Part shown: piece by piece, positions 5,935-10,106 of the stretch | How positions within the stretch are numbered: position 1 is the first letter of the stretch | Layout of the letters: the number at the start of each line of letters is the position of its first letter | DNA from: Sphingomonadales bacterium | GTDB taxonomy: Bacteria > Pseudomonadota > Alphaproteobacteria > Sphingomonadales > Sphingomonadaceae | NCBI GenBank assembly: GCA_013297725.1 | Contig: JAAFIB010000009.1 | Location: forward strand, 1-62,190 | Direction of reading: 5' to 3' | Length of the DNA stretch: 62,190 nt | Translations under genes and position numbers: made by a program | The notes under the pieces: model-generated | Seen by the model: the letters and a program-made list of their open reading frames with translations, nothing else | Told to the model about the DNA's origin: nothing | Databases searched by the model: none

Positions 5935-6336
5935 ATGCGGCTATCCAATATGGCAGATTATGCAGTGGTGGTAATGAGTGCGGCAGCGCGCCATTGCGGC
6001 GGCATGCGCACGTCGGCGACGGAGCTAGCATCCGAAACCGGTATAGCATTGCCGACGGTGCAGAAACTGGTCAGCATATTATCAAAAGGCGGCCTGCTGC
6101 GTTCGGTGCGCGGTGCAGGCGGCGGCATACAATTGGCGCGGCCCGCAGCCGCGATCACTTTGGCCGATATTGTTGAGGCGGTTGAAGGACCGATTGCGCT
6201 GACGGGCTGCGTCAATGAACAGACGTGTCATTGCAGCATAGAACCCGATTGCGCAGTGAAACCCCATATGGGCGCGGCAAATGCTGCGGTGCGCGGCGCG
6301 CTGGCGAACATCACTTTGACGAGCTTGGCACGATGA
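5935..6336 (+). CDS. Rrf2-family SUF-system transcriptional regulator
   Basis: 133-residue winged-helix regulator of the Rrf2/IscR family, probably sensing Fe-S status and controlling the downstream suf operon. The N-terminal helix-turn-helix is followed by the wing ([11 protein letters not shown]). A cysteine cluster in the C-terminal third (CVNEQTCHC then C about five residues later) fits Fe-S ligands, as in the SUF-specific subgroup. It opens a 12-gene overlapping cluster: its TGA overlaps the sufB ATG (ATGA). A palindrome upstream (5895-5923) is the likely operator. Whether it is an activator or a repressor cannot be read from sequence. Confidence 0.9.
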
Positions 6337-7829
6337 CAGACGATATTGCAGTAAAAGACTCCGTCGTGAAGGACCAAGCCGCATGGGATGCTGCCGATAA
6401 GGTTGCCGACTATGAGCATGGCTGGTCGTCGGACATCGAAACCGAATTCGCCGAAAAGGGCCTGACCGAGGCGACTGTTCGCTTTATTTCGGGCAAAAAG
6501 AACGAGCCCGAATGGATGCTCGAATGGCGGTTGAAGGCGTTTGCCATGTGGCAAACAATGACGCCGCCCGATTGGGCGAAGCTGAATGTGCCGCCGATTG
6601 ATTATCAAGACGCGTATTATTACGCCGCACCGAAGCCAAAACCAAAGCTGGGTTCGCTTGATGAGGTCGATCCAGAAATCCTGCGCGTGTATGAAAAGCT
6701 TGGCATTCCGATCGCCGAACAAGAAGTGCTTGCCGGGGTAGAAGGCGCGCGTAAGGTGGCGGTGGATGCGGTGTTTGACAGCGTTTCCGTGGCGACCACC
6801 TTCAGGGCGGAATTGGAGCGTGCAGGCGTTATCTTCCGTTCGATTAGTGAAGCGATCAAGGAATATCCTGATCTGGTGAAGAAATGGCTCGGCAAAATTG
6901 TGCCGATGCATGACAATTATTTCGCCACCTTGAACTGCGCAGTCTTTTCCGACGGGACGTTTGTCTACATCCCCGAGGGCGTCCGCTGCCCGATGGAGCT
7001 GTCCACCTATTTCCGCATCAATGCCGAAAACACCGGGCAGTTTGAACGCACATTAATCGTCGCCGACAAGGGCAGCTACGTGTCCTACCTCGAGGGCTGC
7101 ACCGCGCCGATGCGCGACGAGAATCAGCTGCATGCTGCGGTCGTTGAGCTGGTTGCCTTGGACGATGCAGAGATCAAATATTCGACCGTGCAGAATTGGT
7201 ATCCCGGCGATGCGGAGGGCAAAGGCGGCATCTATAATTTCGTCACCAAGCGCGCCTTGTGTCAGGGACGGAACAGCAAGGTTTCGTGGACCCAAGTTGA
7301 AACCGGTAGCGCGGTGACGTGGAAATACCCCAGCTGCGTCCTCAACGGCGAAAACAGCGTTGGCGAATTTTACTCGGTCGCGGTGACTAATAACTACCAG
7401 CAGGCCGATACCGGCACCAAGATGATCCACAACGGCAAGGGCAGCCGCTCGACCATCGTGTCGAAGGGCATCAGCGCGGGGCACAGCAACAACACCTATC
7501 GCGGGCTGGTCCGCGTCGCGCCGAATGCAGAGGGTGTGCGGAACTTCACCCAGTGCGATAGCTTGCTGCTGGGCAGCGAATGCGGCGCGCATACGGTGCC
7601 CTATATCGAGGTCCGCAACCCTTCGGCCCAGATTGAGCATGAGGCGACCACCAGCAAGATCAGCGACGACCAGATGTTCTACGCGCAAGCACGCGGCCTG
7701 AATGCCGAGGAAGCGGTGGCCCTGATCGTCAACGGCTTTGCCAAGGAAGTGCTGCAGCAACTACCGATGGAATTTGCGGTGGAGGCGCAGAAGTTGCTTG
7801 GCATCTCGCTTGAGGGGTCGGTTGGATGA
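6333..7829 (+). CDS. sufB: Fe-S cluster assembly scaffold SufB
   Basis: 498-residue scaffold subunit of the SufBCD complex on which Fe-S clusters are built. The beta-helix core is recognisable, with the conserved segments [37 protein letters not shown] and ECGAHTVPY and the C-terminal helical domain ending GISLEGSVG. Start at 6333 is chosen because it overlaps the regulator stop (ATGA); the longer upstream reading frame lies inside the regulator gene. The last 16 codons have a diverged second copy at 8300-8347, at the end of the inserted DUF559 gene. The ATG of that gene overlaps the sufB stop by four bases. Confidence 0.97.
7782..7829 (+). repeat. sufB 3'-end repeat, proximal copy
   Basis: 48 bases encoding the last 15 residues of SufB plus the stop. 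They align without gaps to 8300-8347 at 34 of 48 positions; 14 of 15 residues are identical. Almost all differences are synonymous, so the pair is not a fresh target-site duplication. Confidence 0.85.
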
Positions 7830-8347
7830 GTTTCGCCGAACTCGATAAAGGATGGCGACCAGAAGCCCCTCCCCTTCAGGGGAGGGGTTTGGGGTGGGGG
7901 CTGTCAGTTGAGCAAATCCGCTGGCTTCAAGAACGCGCGCACGAAATGCGCCGCAACCCTACTGAGCCGGAAAAGCGCCTATGGCGGAACTTGTCCGGCA
8001 ACCAGGTCGATGGCCTGAAGTTTCGCAGGCAGGAAGTGATCGGTCCTTACATTGCCGATTTCATGTGTCCAGCGCGGTCCCTGATTGTCGAAGTCGATGG
8101 CGATACCCATGACGAAGCCAAAGATCGGCTGCGCGACGATGTGCTAGCGCAGTTCGGATTTCTTGTGCTGCGGGTGGCCAATGCCGATGTGATGACGAAT
8201 GCAGAGGGTGTGGTTGGGGCGATACGTTATGCGGCGTCTGGCCGTTCATCACCCCACAACCCCCACCCCAACCCCTCCCCTGAAGGGGAGGGGCTTAAGG
8301 AGGCGCAGAAATTGCTGGGGATTTCATTGGAAGTGAGTGTGGGGTGA
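7826..8347 (+). CDS. DUF559 endonuclease-domain protein inserted between sufB and sufC
   Basis: 173-residue protein with a DUF559 domain, a Vsr-like PD-(D/E)xK nuclease fold. [15 protein letters not shown] (about 42-56) begins the domain; the likely active site is D78 in YIADFMC with E89-x-D91 in VEVDGDTH. The domain ends near residue 135. Both flanks of the domain are encoded by inverted GC-rich palindromes (residues about 14-26 and 142-156). The last 15 residues ([15 protein letters not shown]) repeat the SufB C-terminus. The ATG overlaps the sufB stop (ATGA), so it is probably translated. DUF559 genes have no agreed biological role. The structure suggests a mobile or REP-associated nuclease rather than an Fe-S factor; that is inference. 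Confidence 0.85.
7865..8294. mobile_element. Palindrome-bounded DUF559 unit (candidate mobile element)
   Basis: Inverted repeats of about 38 bases bound the DUF559 domain. The left repeat (7865-7903) holds CCCCTCCCCT-TC-AGGGGAGGGG followed by a TTTGGGGTGGGGG tract. The right repeat (8256-8294) is its near-exact reverse complement, ending CCCCTCCCCT-GA-AGGGGAGGGG. Each is itself a perfect 10-bp-arm hairpin. The reading frame runs through both repeats. The layout recalls REP elements paired with their transposases, but with a nuclease-fold protein instead. Confidence 0.6.
8300..8347 (+). repeat. sufB 3'-end repeat, distal copy
   Basis: Second copy of the sufB tail, read in the same frame as the end of the DUF559 gene, directly after the right palindrome. 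It uses A/T-ending codons (AAA, ATT, TCA, GAA, AGT) where the proximal copy uses AAG, ATC, TCG, GAG, TCG. This points to a different sufB lineage or an old displaced end. Confidence 0.85.
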
Positions 8348-8565
8348 TGATTCGAATTTTTGTTGATACTGAATGTGGAAAAGTCTCCGATCATTTTGAA
8401 TTTGGAGCAGTTCCGCACCAAGGAGACGTGGTTTTCATCTTGACCGAAAAGGAAGAGATCAAACTTCTGGTGAAGCTTGTTGAGCATTATCCGAACCCAA
8501 AAGGTGACGTAATGCACCCCGTGTCTAGCGTGACGCTCCAATGCGAAGTCATGCCACATGGCTGA
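8347..8565 (+). CDS. small unknown protein in suf operon (72 aa)
   Basis: I do not recognise the family. The 72-residue protein is acidic with alternating beta-like segments (IRIFVDTEC, DVVFILTEK, VSSVTLQCEV). It has no signal peptide, membrane segment or metal-binding cluster; only two cysteines are present. I chose the ATG at 8347, which overlaps the DUF559 stop by one base (TGATG); a GTG at 8344 is the alternative. It overlaps the next small gene by eight bases, suggesting the two are co-translated and perhaps act together. Codons are richer in A/T than in sufB and sufC, suggesting recent acquisition. Confidence 0.65.
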   Translation: MIRIFVDTECGKVSDHFEFGAVPHQGDVVFILTEKEEIKLLVKLVEHYPNPKGDVMHPVSSVTLQCEVMPHG

Positions 8566-8767
8566 AGAGATTTTTGATTGGGATAACGATGACACGATCA
8601 TCATCCGCACCGTGAAGGCAGTAGCAGTCTATCGAAATCAATATAATGAGGTGGTCATTCGGCAAGAAAATGTCGATCCCCAAGATGAAGACTACTTCAT
8701 TCACGTTCCGCAAAACGAATTACGAAAGCTCATCGAAGCTTTGCAAAAGCAGGTCAATACGAACTAA
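8558..8767 (+). CDS. small unknown protein in suf operon (69 aa)
   Basis: Family not recognised. 69 residues, strongly acidic N-terminus (AEEIFDWDNDD), a central beta-like region (TIIIRTVKAVAVYRN and NEVVIRQ) and a C-terminal amphipathic helix (NELRKLIEALQKQV). It starts eight bases inside the preceding small gene and its TAA overlaps the sufC ATG by one base (TAATG). The pair sits between the palindrome-bounded DUF559 unit and sufC. Its function, and whether it matters for Fe-S assembly, cannot be told from sequence. Confidence 0.7.
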   Translation: MAEEIFDWDNDDTIIIRTVKAVAVYRNQYNEVVIRQENVDPQDEDYFIHVPQNELRKLIEALQKQVNTN

Positions 8768-9603
8768 TGCTCCAAATTCATAACCTCCGCGCCACTGTTG
8801 GCGACAAGCCTATTCTCAAGGGTCTCACCCTCACGCTCAATCCGGGCGAGATCCATGCGATTATGGGGCCGAATGGGGCTGGAAAATCGACGCTGGGTTA
8901 TGTGCTCAGCGGGCGACCTGGGTATGAGGTTACGGATGGGTCTGTAACATTTACCCCACCCGTTCGTGTTGAGCGAAGTCGAGACACCCCGCCGTCGGGC
9001 GCGACCGATGGGCCTCTCGACTTCGCTCGAGGCGAACGGATTGAGGGGGGGGTGAATCTACTGGATATGGACCCCCACGAACGCGCCGCTGCGGGCCTGT
9101 TTCTCGGTTTCCAATATCCAGTCGAAATCCCAGGCGTCTCCAACGTCCAGTTCCTGCGTGAAGCTCTCAACGCCCAGCGTAAGCATCGCGGGGAGGCTCC
9201 GCTGTCCGGCGGAGAGTTCCTGAAAATCGCGCGCGAGCAGGCGGATGCGATGGGCATGGATATGGAGATGCTCAAGAGGCCTGTTAACGTAGGCTTTTCG
9301 GGTGGTGAGAAGAAGCGCAACGAGATGGTGCAGATGGGCATCATCAATCCGTGCCTTGCGATCCTTGATGAGACTGACAGCGGGCTTGATATCGACGCGC
9401 TGCGCGTTGTCGGCGATGGCATCAACCGGATCATGCGGAGGCCGGACAAGGCAGTGCTGCTGATCACCCATTACCAACGCCTGCTCGATTATGTGCAGCC
9501 CGATTTCGTCCATGTGCTTGCGGATGGCCGGATCACCCGCACCGGCGGGCCGGAACTGGCGCATGAGCTGGAGCGGGATGGGTATAAGGAGCTGGCGGCG
9601 TGA
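8767..9603 (+). CDS. sufC: Fe-S assembly ATPase SufC with repeat-encoded insertion
   Basis: ABC-type ATPase that drives the SufBCD scaffold. Motifs: Walker A GPNGAGKST (34-42), Q-loop Gln116 in FQYPVEIPG, signature FSGGEKKR (177-184), Walker B CLAILDE (196-202), switch His235. SufC is normally about 248 residues; this one has 278. The excess is residues about 63-94, encoded by a palindromic repeat (8951-9055) lying between Walker A and the Q-loop, just before NLLDMDPHERA. All catalytic motifs are intact and the frame is preserved, so the protein is probably active with an extra surface loop. The stop overlaps the GNAT gene start (GTGA). Confidence 0.95.
   Translation: MLQIHNLRATVGDKPILKGLTLTLNPGEIHAIMGPNGAGKSTLGYVLSGRPGYEVTDGSVTFTPPVRVERSRDTPPSGATDGPLDFARGERIEGGVNLLDMDPHERAAAGLFLGFQYPVEIPGVSNVQFLREALNAQRKHRGEAPLSGGEFLKIAREQADAMGMDMEMLKRPVNVGFSGGEKKRNEMVQMGIINPCLAILDETDSGLDIDALRVVGDGINRIMRRPDKAVLLITHYQRLLDYVQPDFVHVLADGRITRTGGPELAHELERDGYKELAA
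8951..9055. repeat. Palindromic repeat inside sufC (family B)
   Basis: Inverted repeat in the coding sequence. The left arm contains CGTTCGTGTTGAGCGAAGTC (from 8961). The right arm contains CTCTCGACTTCGCTCGAGGC (from 9014), with flanking poly-C and poly-G tracts. It adds about 32 residues (PPVRVERSRD to ERIEGG) to SufC without a frameshift. Its arm sequence differs from that of the lptE repeat, so it is a second family. Confidence 0.85.
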
Positions 9604-10106
9604 GCCTGATTGTTCGCCCTGTTCAGCCTGATGACGTGCCTGAGCTTGCAGAGTTGTTGAACGCCGTTATCTCGCGCGGTGGCACGACGGCATTGGAAGA
9701 GACTTTTACTCACGAACGGCTGGCCGAGACTTATCTTGACGGTCCGAAAGTTCTGGCCTGCCTTGTTGCGGTCGATACCGAAACGGGACGGTTAGAAGGG
9801 TTTGAAACGCTGCTCTGCGACCCAACCCTGCCCGACGATATCGGCGACATCGGGACATTTACGCGTGTGGATGGCATCCAACGCGGCGTGGGTTCGGCAC
9901 TATTCGCGGCGATGGTTGAACGCGCAAAGGCGCTAGGCCTGTCGGCAATCAACGCCACGATCCGCGCCGATAATGTTGGCGGCCTGACATTTTATGGCAA
10001 GCAAGGCTTTGCCGATCATTCGGTGACAGCGGCGGTTCCATTAAAGGATGGAACGCCAGTTGACCGTGTTCACAAACGCTTTGTGCTGGCAATGGTGGAG
10101 GCGTGA
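9600..10106 (+). CDS. GNAT-family N-acetyltransferase in suf operon
   Basis: 168-residue GNAT protein: N-terminal strand IVRPVQPDDVPELAELLN and, in the second half, the acetyl-CoA-binding motif VDGIQRGVGSALFAAM (Q/R-x-x-G-x-G/A type), then INATIRADNVGGLTFYGKQGF, the usual motif B. The substrate is unknown. It starts with GTG overlapping the sufC stop (GTGA) and ends overlapping the next gene, so it is co-transcribed with suf. A link to Fe-S biogenesis is not established; it may be a passenger. Confidence 0.85.
   Translation: MSLIVRPVQPDDVPELAELLNAVISRGGTTALEETFTHERLAETYLDGPKVLACLVAVDTETGRLEGFETLLCDPTLPDDIGDIGTFTRVDGIQRGVGSALFAAMVERAKALGLSAINATIRADNVGGLTFYGKQGFADHSVTAAVPLKDGTPVDRVHKRFVLAMVEA

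Follow-up and report, generated by a model that had tools for sequence, protein, structure and literature searches.

A palindrome-flanked DUF559 nuclease gene between two copies of the sufB 3′ end: a candidate homing element of sphingomonads

The sufB-DUF559 locus

The DNA analysed here (the window) is contig JAAFIB010000009.1 of a Sphingomonadales bacterium of the Sphingomonadaceae (assembly GCA_013297725.1), 62,190 nts in length, in which a gene for a predicted nuclease of the DUF559 family directly follows sufB and ends in a second copy of the sufB 3′ end. The sufB gene (6333..7829, + strand) encodes the SufBD core (PF01458, Pfam E-value 1.1e-79) and closes with the tail copy in use, hereafter the proximal tail or tail 1, which is the end of the sufB reading frame (7782..7829, + strand). 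The ATG of the DUF559 open reading frame (ORF; 7826..8347, + strand; PF04480, Pfam E-value 2e-31) overlaps the sufB stop codon (ATGA at 7826) and the ORF encodes a predicted PD-(D/E)XK or Vsr-like nuclease. It contains, in this order, a left palindrome, the DUF559 domain, a right palindrome and, as its own end, the second sufB tail. The palindromes, CCCCTCCCCTTCAGGGGAGGGG at 7866-7887 and CCCCTCCCCTGAAGGGGAGGGG at 8272-8293, are held in a left (7863..7899, + strand) and a right (8260..8296, + strand) inverted repeat, which are 92% complementary over 37 nts and bracket the DUF559 ORF. The distal tail or tail 2 (8300..8347, + strand) begins 6 nts past the right 22-nt palindrome core, behind the junction CTTAAG (8294..8299, + strand), and this relic sufB end forms the C-terminus of the DUF559 protein of the window.

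The palindrome is present 40 times in the genome of the window with at most 2 mismatches, while its reversed control is present 0 times. The 40 palindromes comprise 16 doublets spaced 72-117 nts apart, the pair of the window, which is 406 nts apart, and 6 singles. A search of positions 6300-9700 of the window against Rfam returned no family up to an E-value of 1, introns included, and PADLOC returned weak partial matches only.

Second sufB tails and their silent divergence

The initial annotation of the window had aligned positions 7782-7829 with 8300-8347, and this pair proved exact: 34 of the 48 bases and 14 of the 15 residues are equal, and the serine encoded by TCG in one copy and AGT in the other is present as described. 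With the stop codon included, the codon meaning is equal in 15 of 16 positions, ten codon changes being silent and one a replacement. A repeat search recovered the two tails as a 49-nt direct repeat (71% identity) with a spacing of 518 nts, which is not a short identical target-site duplication of the insertion-sequence kind. The alignment score of the pair is 62, while shuffled sufB tails aligned to the same spacers reached a maximum of 35 in 1,827 alignments. Among 20,000 random mutants of tail 1 with 14 substitutions, none was down to one replacement codon (minimum 3, mean 8.4).

To place the window among its relatives, sufB 3′ junctions were collected from the window genus (40 loci from 45 genomes searched), from 40 chosen members of the family, from congener sets of 6 and 14 genomes, from Sphingopyxis (75 of 80 genomes with a match) and from loci found via the nuclease itself. 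The 40 family junctions were hand-picked and are non-random, taken from + strand places among the matches listed. After removal of duplicates, 225 loci yielded 207 distinct junctions, including loci fetched for carrying DUF559; L092, at a contig edge and without a sufB part, and loci without a usable sufB match were left out before counting. Tail 2 was called when the last 18 sufB codons and the stop codon, compared with the spacer in three frames, gave a local alignment score of at least 40.

A second sufB tail was found in 19 of the 207 junctions, all with the palindrome element or a remnant of it: 16 carry DUF559, L334 has a palindrome doublet only, and L149 and L316 have a single worn palindrome, which escapes the search pattern, so that these two were counted as palindrome loci by eye. 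Tail 2 is present in 19 of the 56 element-bearing junctions and in 0 of the 148 testable palindrome-free ones, where the best score was 31; 151 junctions are element-free, about three of which have almost no gap. L093 and L115 are palindrome-free in these counts but are grouped with the element rows on the DUF559 tree described below. Element carriers were partly sought on purpose, hence the counts give no prevalence. In Sphingopyxis, a genus picked for its known carriers, the element or a remnant was found in 14 of the 75 genomes with sufB and tail 2 in 11, while in the window genus the element is present in 3 of the 40 junction loci and tail 2 in 2. An assembly artefact was ruled out, as the same structure is present in many separate assemblies, including the complete genome NZ_CP104207 (L195). 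L334 (G301), L149 and L316 are palindrome-only remnants at the same sufB site, and the two palindromes of L334 lie 91 nts apart.

Across the 19 tail pairs, including L183, whose tail-2 slice is out of register at its start, 216 base differences were counted and 109 of the 144 changed codons are silent (0.757). The neutral expectation for this share is 0.213 (standard deviation 0.030) and the highest of 500 simulations reached 0.295. This silent excess shows that the two copies served as functional sufB ends for most of the time since they separated. Together with the simulation on the window pair, it firmly supports the initial annotation on this point, which had excluded a simple duplication and considered both copies to have evolved as real sufB tails.

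An extra silent recoding of tail 1, beyond the divergence between lineages, was sought by distance among Sphingopyxis tails and was not found. A motif that resembles half of the palindrome, CTTGAGGGGAG[CT]GT, is present in tail 1 of 6 of the 56 element loci and in 54 of the 151 element-free tails (Fisher p 2.7e-4). The corresponding figures are 1/14 and 32/61 in Sphingopyxis (p 0.002) and 5/42 and 22/90 in the other genera (p 0.11), and the motif is frequent in tail 2 (11/19). These statistics are recorded only, as the rows are related and the motif was picked after looking.

Insertion place and empty sites

The right edge of the element lies at one place inside sufB, F|AVEAQ, 17 codons ahead of the stop codon. 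Counted from the CTT (or CTA) at the close of the right palindrome arm, the Glu codon of V-E-A-Q follows after exactly 12 bases in 15 of the 19 loci and after 6 bases in three, including the window, L183 being not measurable. At the best preserved junctions, the arm end CTTGA is followed by one base in place of the third Phe base and then by GCG GTC GAG. The element has a single fixed insertion place in a conserved gene, as is the case for homing endonucleases.

Empty sites were recognised from the DNA behind tail 2, which in three Sphingopyxis loci corresponds over almost its full length to the sufB-sufC spacer of an element-free relative. In L195 (Sphingopyxis sp. PET50), this DNA aligns over positions 1-620 to the complete 620-nt spacer of the element-free L326 (83%). 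Likewise, it matches the L330 spacer over 21-398 of 398 nts (89%) in L305 and the L322 spacer over 3-255 of 255 nts (89%) in L321. In genus g95, the order in genome G205 (L095/L164) is tail 1, DUF559, the peptide LEGSVG and an ORF; in G323 (L163), the homologue of this ORF lies immediately behind sufB. Since the DNA behind tail 2 matches a different element-free relative from locus to locus, insertions into different backgrounds would have been needed more than once.

The next ORF (of at least 40 aa) starts at -4 or -1 of the tail-2 stop codon in all 19 loci, and at element-free junctions with a spacer of at least 150 nts the next ORF overlaps the sufB stop codon in 107 of 111. The sufB end hence also serves as the start of the next gene, and this double use would keep the relic tail 2 in place. 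The sufC gene lies 226-1190 nts behind tail 2 in the 19 loci that have one. Of the element loci that lack tail 2, 32 have sufC in reach, and in 14 of these it lies within 43 nts of the last palindrome.

In many relatives, the sufB-sufC gap is a slot for small genes that differ between related species. In the available assembly of L093 (G051), two separate sufB match stretches precede the element, as if the gene were frameshifted.

The nuclease and its spread

The DUF559 match scores 108.5 bits, against a curated Pfam cut-off of 20.6. The two best matches of a profile search against the PDB were 3hrl (2.8e-24) and the mobile intron protein 3r3p (0.0011). A Foldseek search with the AlphaFold model of the protein (mean predicted local distance difference test score, pLDDT, 80) returned 3hrl (1.8e-8), the homing endonuclease I-Bth0305I (3r3p, 1.1e-4) and Vsr (1vsr, 0.07). 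Judged from this predicted model, the nearest characterised fold is that of I-Bth0305I. Nine element copies were aligned, and all nine share the D of IADF and the E, D and H of EVDGxTH.

On a tree of 156 DUF559 proteins, built from a short alignment and with many open forks and some long branches, the 53 sufB-linked rows need 5 label changes, while shuffled labels need 44.4 on average. On a tree of 74 Sphingopyxis sufB bodies, the 14 element rows need 13 changes, equal to the shuffled mean of 13.0, and at least 7 of these are forced by well supported branches. On these two trees, the nuclease lineage thus follows the site and not the host. In a search for the nuclease in named genomes, 38 of the 80 loci among the matches listed have a same-strand sufB upstream, the DUF559 match of these 38 beginning 0-545 nts from the sufB end.

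At the DNA level, the nuclease cores of the window and of UBA4766 (L181) share 83.1% identity, whereas the sufB bodies of the two are 78.7% identical. The mean core identity in 474 pairs of such sufB identity is 65.3% (standard deviation 3.4), and the core identity exceeds that of sufB in only 3 of 1,176 pairs. The excess between the window and UBA4766 is read as transfer, and the element appears from these comparisons to have spread horizontally relative to its hosts.

Away from sufB, 87 DUF559 loci were compared (91 rows minus the four sufB copies L001, L048, L049 and L092) and a duplicated gene end was recognised at none of them; a general habit of DUF559 elements of duplicating the end of the preceding gene was rejected on this basis. 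By eye, the high scores at these loci come from repeats read through stop codons, palindromic peptides and low-complexity frames. A palindrome-free relative of DUF559 is present in the sufB-sufC gap of 16 of the 40 chosen family members; the 16 form one clade (SH-aLRT 100) and, by eye, none keeps the motif His. Among open-licence papers, no literature link of DUF559 to sufB, sphingomonads, palindromes or homing was found, the latter two being judged by title. In another set of listed papers, the Caulobacter study of VsrA (PMC12907096) alone mentions DUF559.

The N-terminus of the palindrome-free relative (L121-L160; ..KKKGRGWEISEKRL.. in many) resembles the peptide of the left palindrome, as if it were domesticated from the element. 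A single ORF behind sufB contains both an element DUF559 and the palindrome-free relative in L101 (G063). Other DUF559 subfamilies in the genus (L051, L052, L060, L061, L076 and others) are framed by different repeat-like peptides (..PPAGGRGWGWA / PTPNPSRLREG..), and a general pairing of DUF559 with its own palindrome type is suggested.

Origin of the two tails

The initial annotation had proposed that a foreign end replaced the end of sufB, which was examined by comparing both tails with an element-free relative that has the same spacer (figures are differences of the proximal/distal tail). The distal tail is clearly closer to the relative in L195 (11/4) and L305 (11/2). It is weakly closer in L311 (13/8 and 13/9, relatives of other genera) and in the window (11/9, a relative of another genus). 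When the nearest element-free Sphingopyxis was chosen by sufB bases -1000 to -500, the distal tail was closer in 7 of the 10 Sphingopyxis element loci covered, an eleventh, L149, being without data. Furthermore, the median distance of Sphingopyxis tail 1 to the genus consensus is 10.5 of 48 in element loci (14) and 3 in element-free loci (61; Mann-Whitney p 2.4e-4).

Other loci speak against a native distal tail. L321 gives the opposite result when compared with L322 (proximal 1, distal 10) and fits weakly when compared with L268 (10/8). L334 (4/6) and L199 (9/10 and 8/9) lean slightly to the proximal tail, as does L095 by eye (2/6 over 21 bases), and the proximal tail is closer in 3 of the 10 loci compared by nearest sufB neighbour (L185, L321 and L334). 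In the window, 23 of the last 24 bases of the proximal tail are equal to those of the element-free congeners L010 and L012. The sufB segments of the 39 other loci of the window genus are mostly 75-90% identical, and no sampled relative is near enough to decide which tail is native. An element-free relative with a tail intermediate between the two copies, which the initial annotation regarded as contrary evidence, was not seen, and close strains of the window genome were not found. Hence, the replacement by a foreign end stands as a tendency across loci, in which the distal copy appears native and the proximal one foreign, with exceptions, and not as a conclusion on the window.

Comparison with known systems

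The closest arrangement is found in fungal mitochondria, where mORFs, which are mobile endonuclease ORFs, occupy the 3′ ends of atp6, atp9, cox2 and nad3 in Glomus and of atp6 in Allomyces. They are described as inserting a foreign C-terminus, which is expressed with the host gene, and stranding the native C-terminus downstream; the two C-terminal copies of Glomus atp6 are given there as 63.5% identical in DNA and 91% in protein (PMC3630166). The sphingomonad locus similarly has an endonuclease-like ORF directly behind the core of the host gene and a host gene end on both sides of this ORF, conserved in protein and diverged in DNA. Unlike the mORFs, which encode LAGLIDADG or GIY-YIG enzymes in organelles, it encodes a Vsr-like DUF559 protein at sufB on a bacterial chromosome and has flanking palindromes. 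As Pfam identifies DUF559 and neither LAGLIDADG nor GIY-YIG, the element would work like the fungal kind without belonging to the same enzyme lineage.

The likeness to I-Bth0305I lies in the protein, 3r3p being the second match both by profile and by fold (TM 0.74 to the target), behind the uncharacterised 3hrl. However, the two are only about 20% identical, and the PDB record names a mobile intron protein, while the window has no Rfam intron match. An intron- or intein-borne element was rejected, given the lack of an Rfam family up to an E-value of 1 and a sufB stop codon that precedes the nuclease ORF.

REPINs, which are doublets of repetitive extragenic palindromic (REP) sequences, are tied to RAYT transposases. 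Unlike in REPINs, a DUF559 gene lies here between a wider-spaced pair of palindromes. What is shared with these doublets is the occurrence of many short palindromes in inverted pairs with a narrow spacing (PMC3116915). In Caulobacter, the DUF559 protein VsrA is reported to be responsible for the SOS response in cells lacking a methylase (PMC12907096), suggesting that the family can act on DNA in vivo. Unlike the nuclease of the window, VsrA is proposed there as a mismatch-repair enzyme, and the passage on it describes no link to the end of a host gene (PMC12907096).

Proposed mechanism and alternatives

The 518-base interval of the window is probably a copy of a site-specific homing element of sphingomonads that brings along a substitute for the end of sufB. 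The architecture, the fixed junction, the empty sites, the silent divergence of the tails, the site-tied nuclease clade, the scattered Sphingopyxis hosts and a nuclease that is closer between the window and UBA4766 than the sufB genes of their hosts all argue for this reading, which is drawn from sequence comparison. The element would comprise a full replacement for the last 16-18 sufB codons, a DUF559 gene whose start lies on the sufB stop codon, and a pair of inverted palindromes. In an element-free cell that has received element DNA, the DUF559 protein would cut the intact sufB end, and repair would copy the element via homology on both sides, to the left in the sufB body and to the right in the sufB tail.

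As a protein of the SUF pathway, SufB is presumably essential here. It would stay whole because the element brings its own ending, the old ending of the recipient being left as tail 2. Because the body and tail 1 form a continuous sufB end again, the silent differences of tail 1 would also spare the host from its own nuclease, which is the least supported step. Tail 2 would persist wherever its stop codon overlaps the beginning of the next ORF, as it holds the start region of that ORF. A more far-reaching version, which seems possible and is put forward tentatively, is a natural selfish cut-and-rescue element of bacterial chromosomes, in which the Vsr-like DUF559 nuclease destroys the intact 3′ end of sufB, a gene of Fe-S assembly, in new cells and survives via a silently different working copy; the relative that lacks the invariant active-site His and occupies this gap in other sphingomonads may be a domesticated descendant of the nuclease.

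Besides the exceptional tail comparisons given above, several observations weigh against homing. DUF559 proteins with the same palindromes also occur away from sufB, so that the family is not confined to this gene, 37 of the 56 element loci do not reach the score set for a tail 2, and no report of cleavage was found among the open-licence papers searched. A fixed junction would follow equally from ordinary homologous recombination of an old allele. It is accordingly conceivable, though rather unlikely, that a palindrome-flanked DUF559 gene landed once in the sufB end by illegitimate recombination and that this allele then spread by ordinary homologous recombination without any cutting, the gap being a slot of fast turnover. 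Such a history would also yield the patchy distribution, and it fits the many different genes in the gap and the genes found between sufB and the element: a non-DUF559 gene that precedes the element in L180 (G345) ends in the short relic LEGSVG (score 30, below the threshold) and another ORF lies between tail 1 and the nuclease in L185, implying that the sufB site also takes up other genes. The tails, moreover, differ no more than random homologues do, with 5.6 silent codon differences between tail 1 and tail 2 and 5.4 between random element-free Sphingopyxis tails (41% of draws as high). However, a passively carried allele does not explain why the nuclease clade tracks one site while its Sphingopyxis hosts are scattered like shuffled labels, nor the invariant D, E, D and H of the two nuclease motifs, and the spacers of different element-free relatives behind tail 2 would require more than one insertion.

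Mobilisation of palindrome-ended units by DUF559, with the sufB site as a favoured target and the tail duplication as a very long target-site duplication, is consistent with the 40 palindromes of the window genome, 16 doublets among them and none in the control, and with the DUF559-free doublet at the sufB site of L334, which has a tail 2. It is nevertheless highly improbable, as a target duplication would start identical and decay neutrally, whereas the pairs differ mainly by silent changes. In G205 eleven bases after both tails agree, whereas the stretch that separates tail 1 from the left palindrome in the window does not, by eye, recur behind tail 2. The 87 loci away from sufB, with no recognised gene-end duplication, also speak against it. 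Least credible, with a negligible chance, is that one genome simply duplicated its sufB end in tandem and that mutation followed. The two copies do share their length and reading-frame meaning, but none of the 20,000 neutral simulations had as few replacement codons as the window pair and the silent excess extends over the whole set. For the window this origin is thereby refuted, except in the case that selection for the SufB sequence acts on copy 2 itself.

Replacement of a gene end by a mobile endonuclease gene has been described for fungal mitochondria, and the present case would add numerous copies on bacterial chromosomes, some well preserved and others worn, together with empty sites, one target gene and a nuclease family whose function is unknown. 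DUF559 would thereby gain a concrete and testable role, and the element would be a natural counterpart of engineered cleave-and-rescue designs. The tail pairs further suggest that lineages can exchange the end of a core gene while the protein stays almost the same. Finally, trees and annotation can be misled by sufB ends and by the spacer that follows them, as when a relic tail reads as the end of the nuclease.

Neighbouring genes and further observations

Two small ORFs without Pfam or NCBIfam match separate tail 2 from sufC in the window. The first (8344..8565, + strand) overlaps the tail-2 stop codon and has a relative directly behind sufB in the element-free Sphingopyxis L314 (tblastx, 65% over 65 aa), while the second (8558..8767, + strand) has a weak likeness to a small ORF behind the element in L035 (tblastx, 31% over 59 aa). 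In L180 (G345), the non-DUF559 gene ahead of the element ends in KAQVLNKLEGSVG, a possible sufB-tail relic of another insertion. The sufC gene of the window (8767..9603, + strand; ABC_tran, 5.2e-15) is 837 nts long, compared with 741 nts in many congeners, and at 8960-9039 it contains an in-frame insert of about 32 residues that is another inverted repeat (CCGTTCGTGTTGAGCGAAGTCGAGA...).

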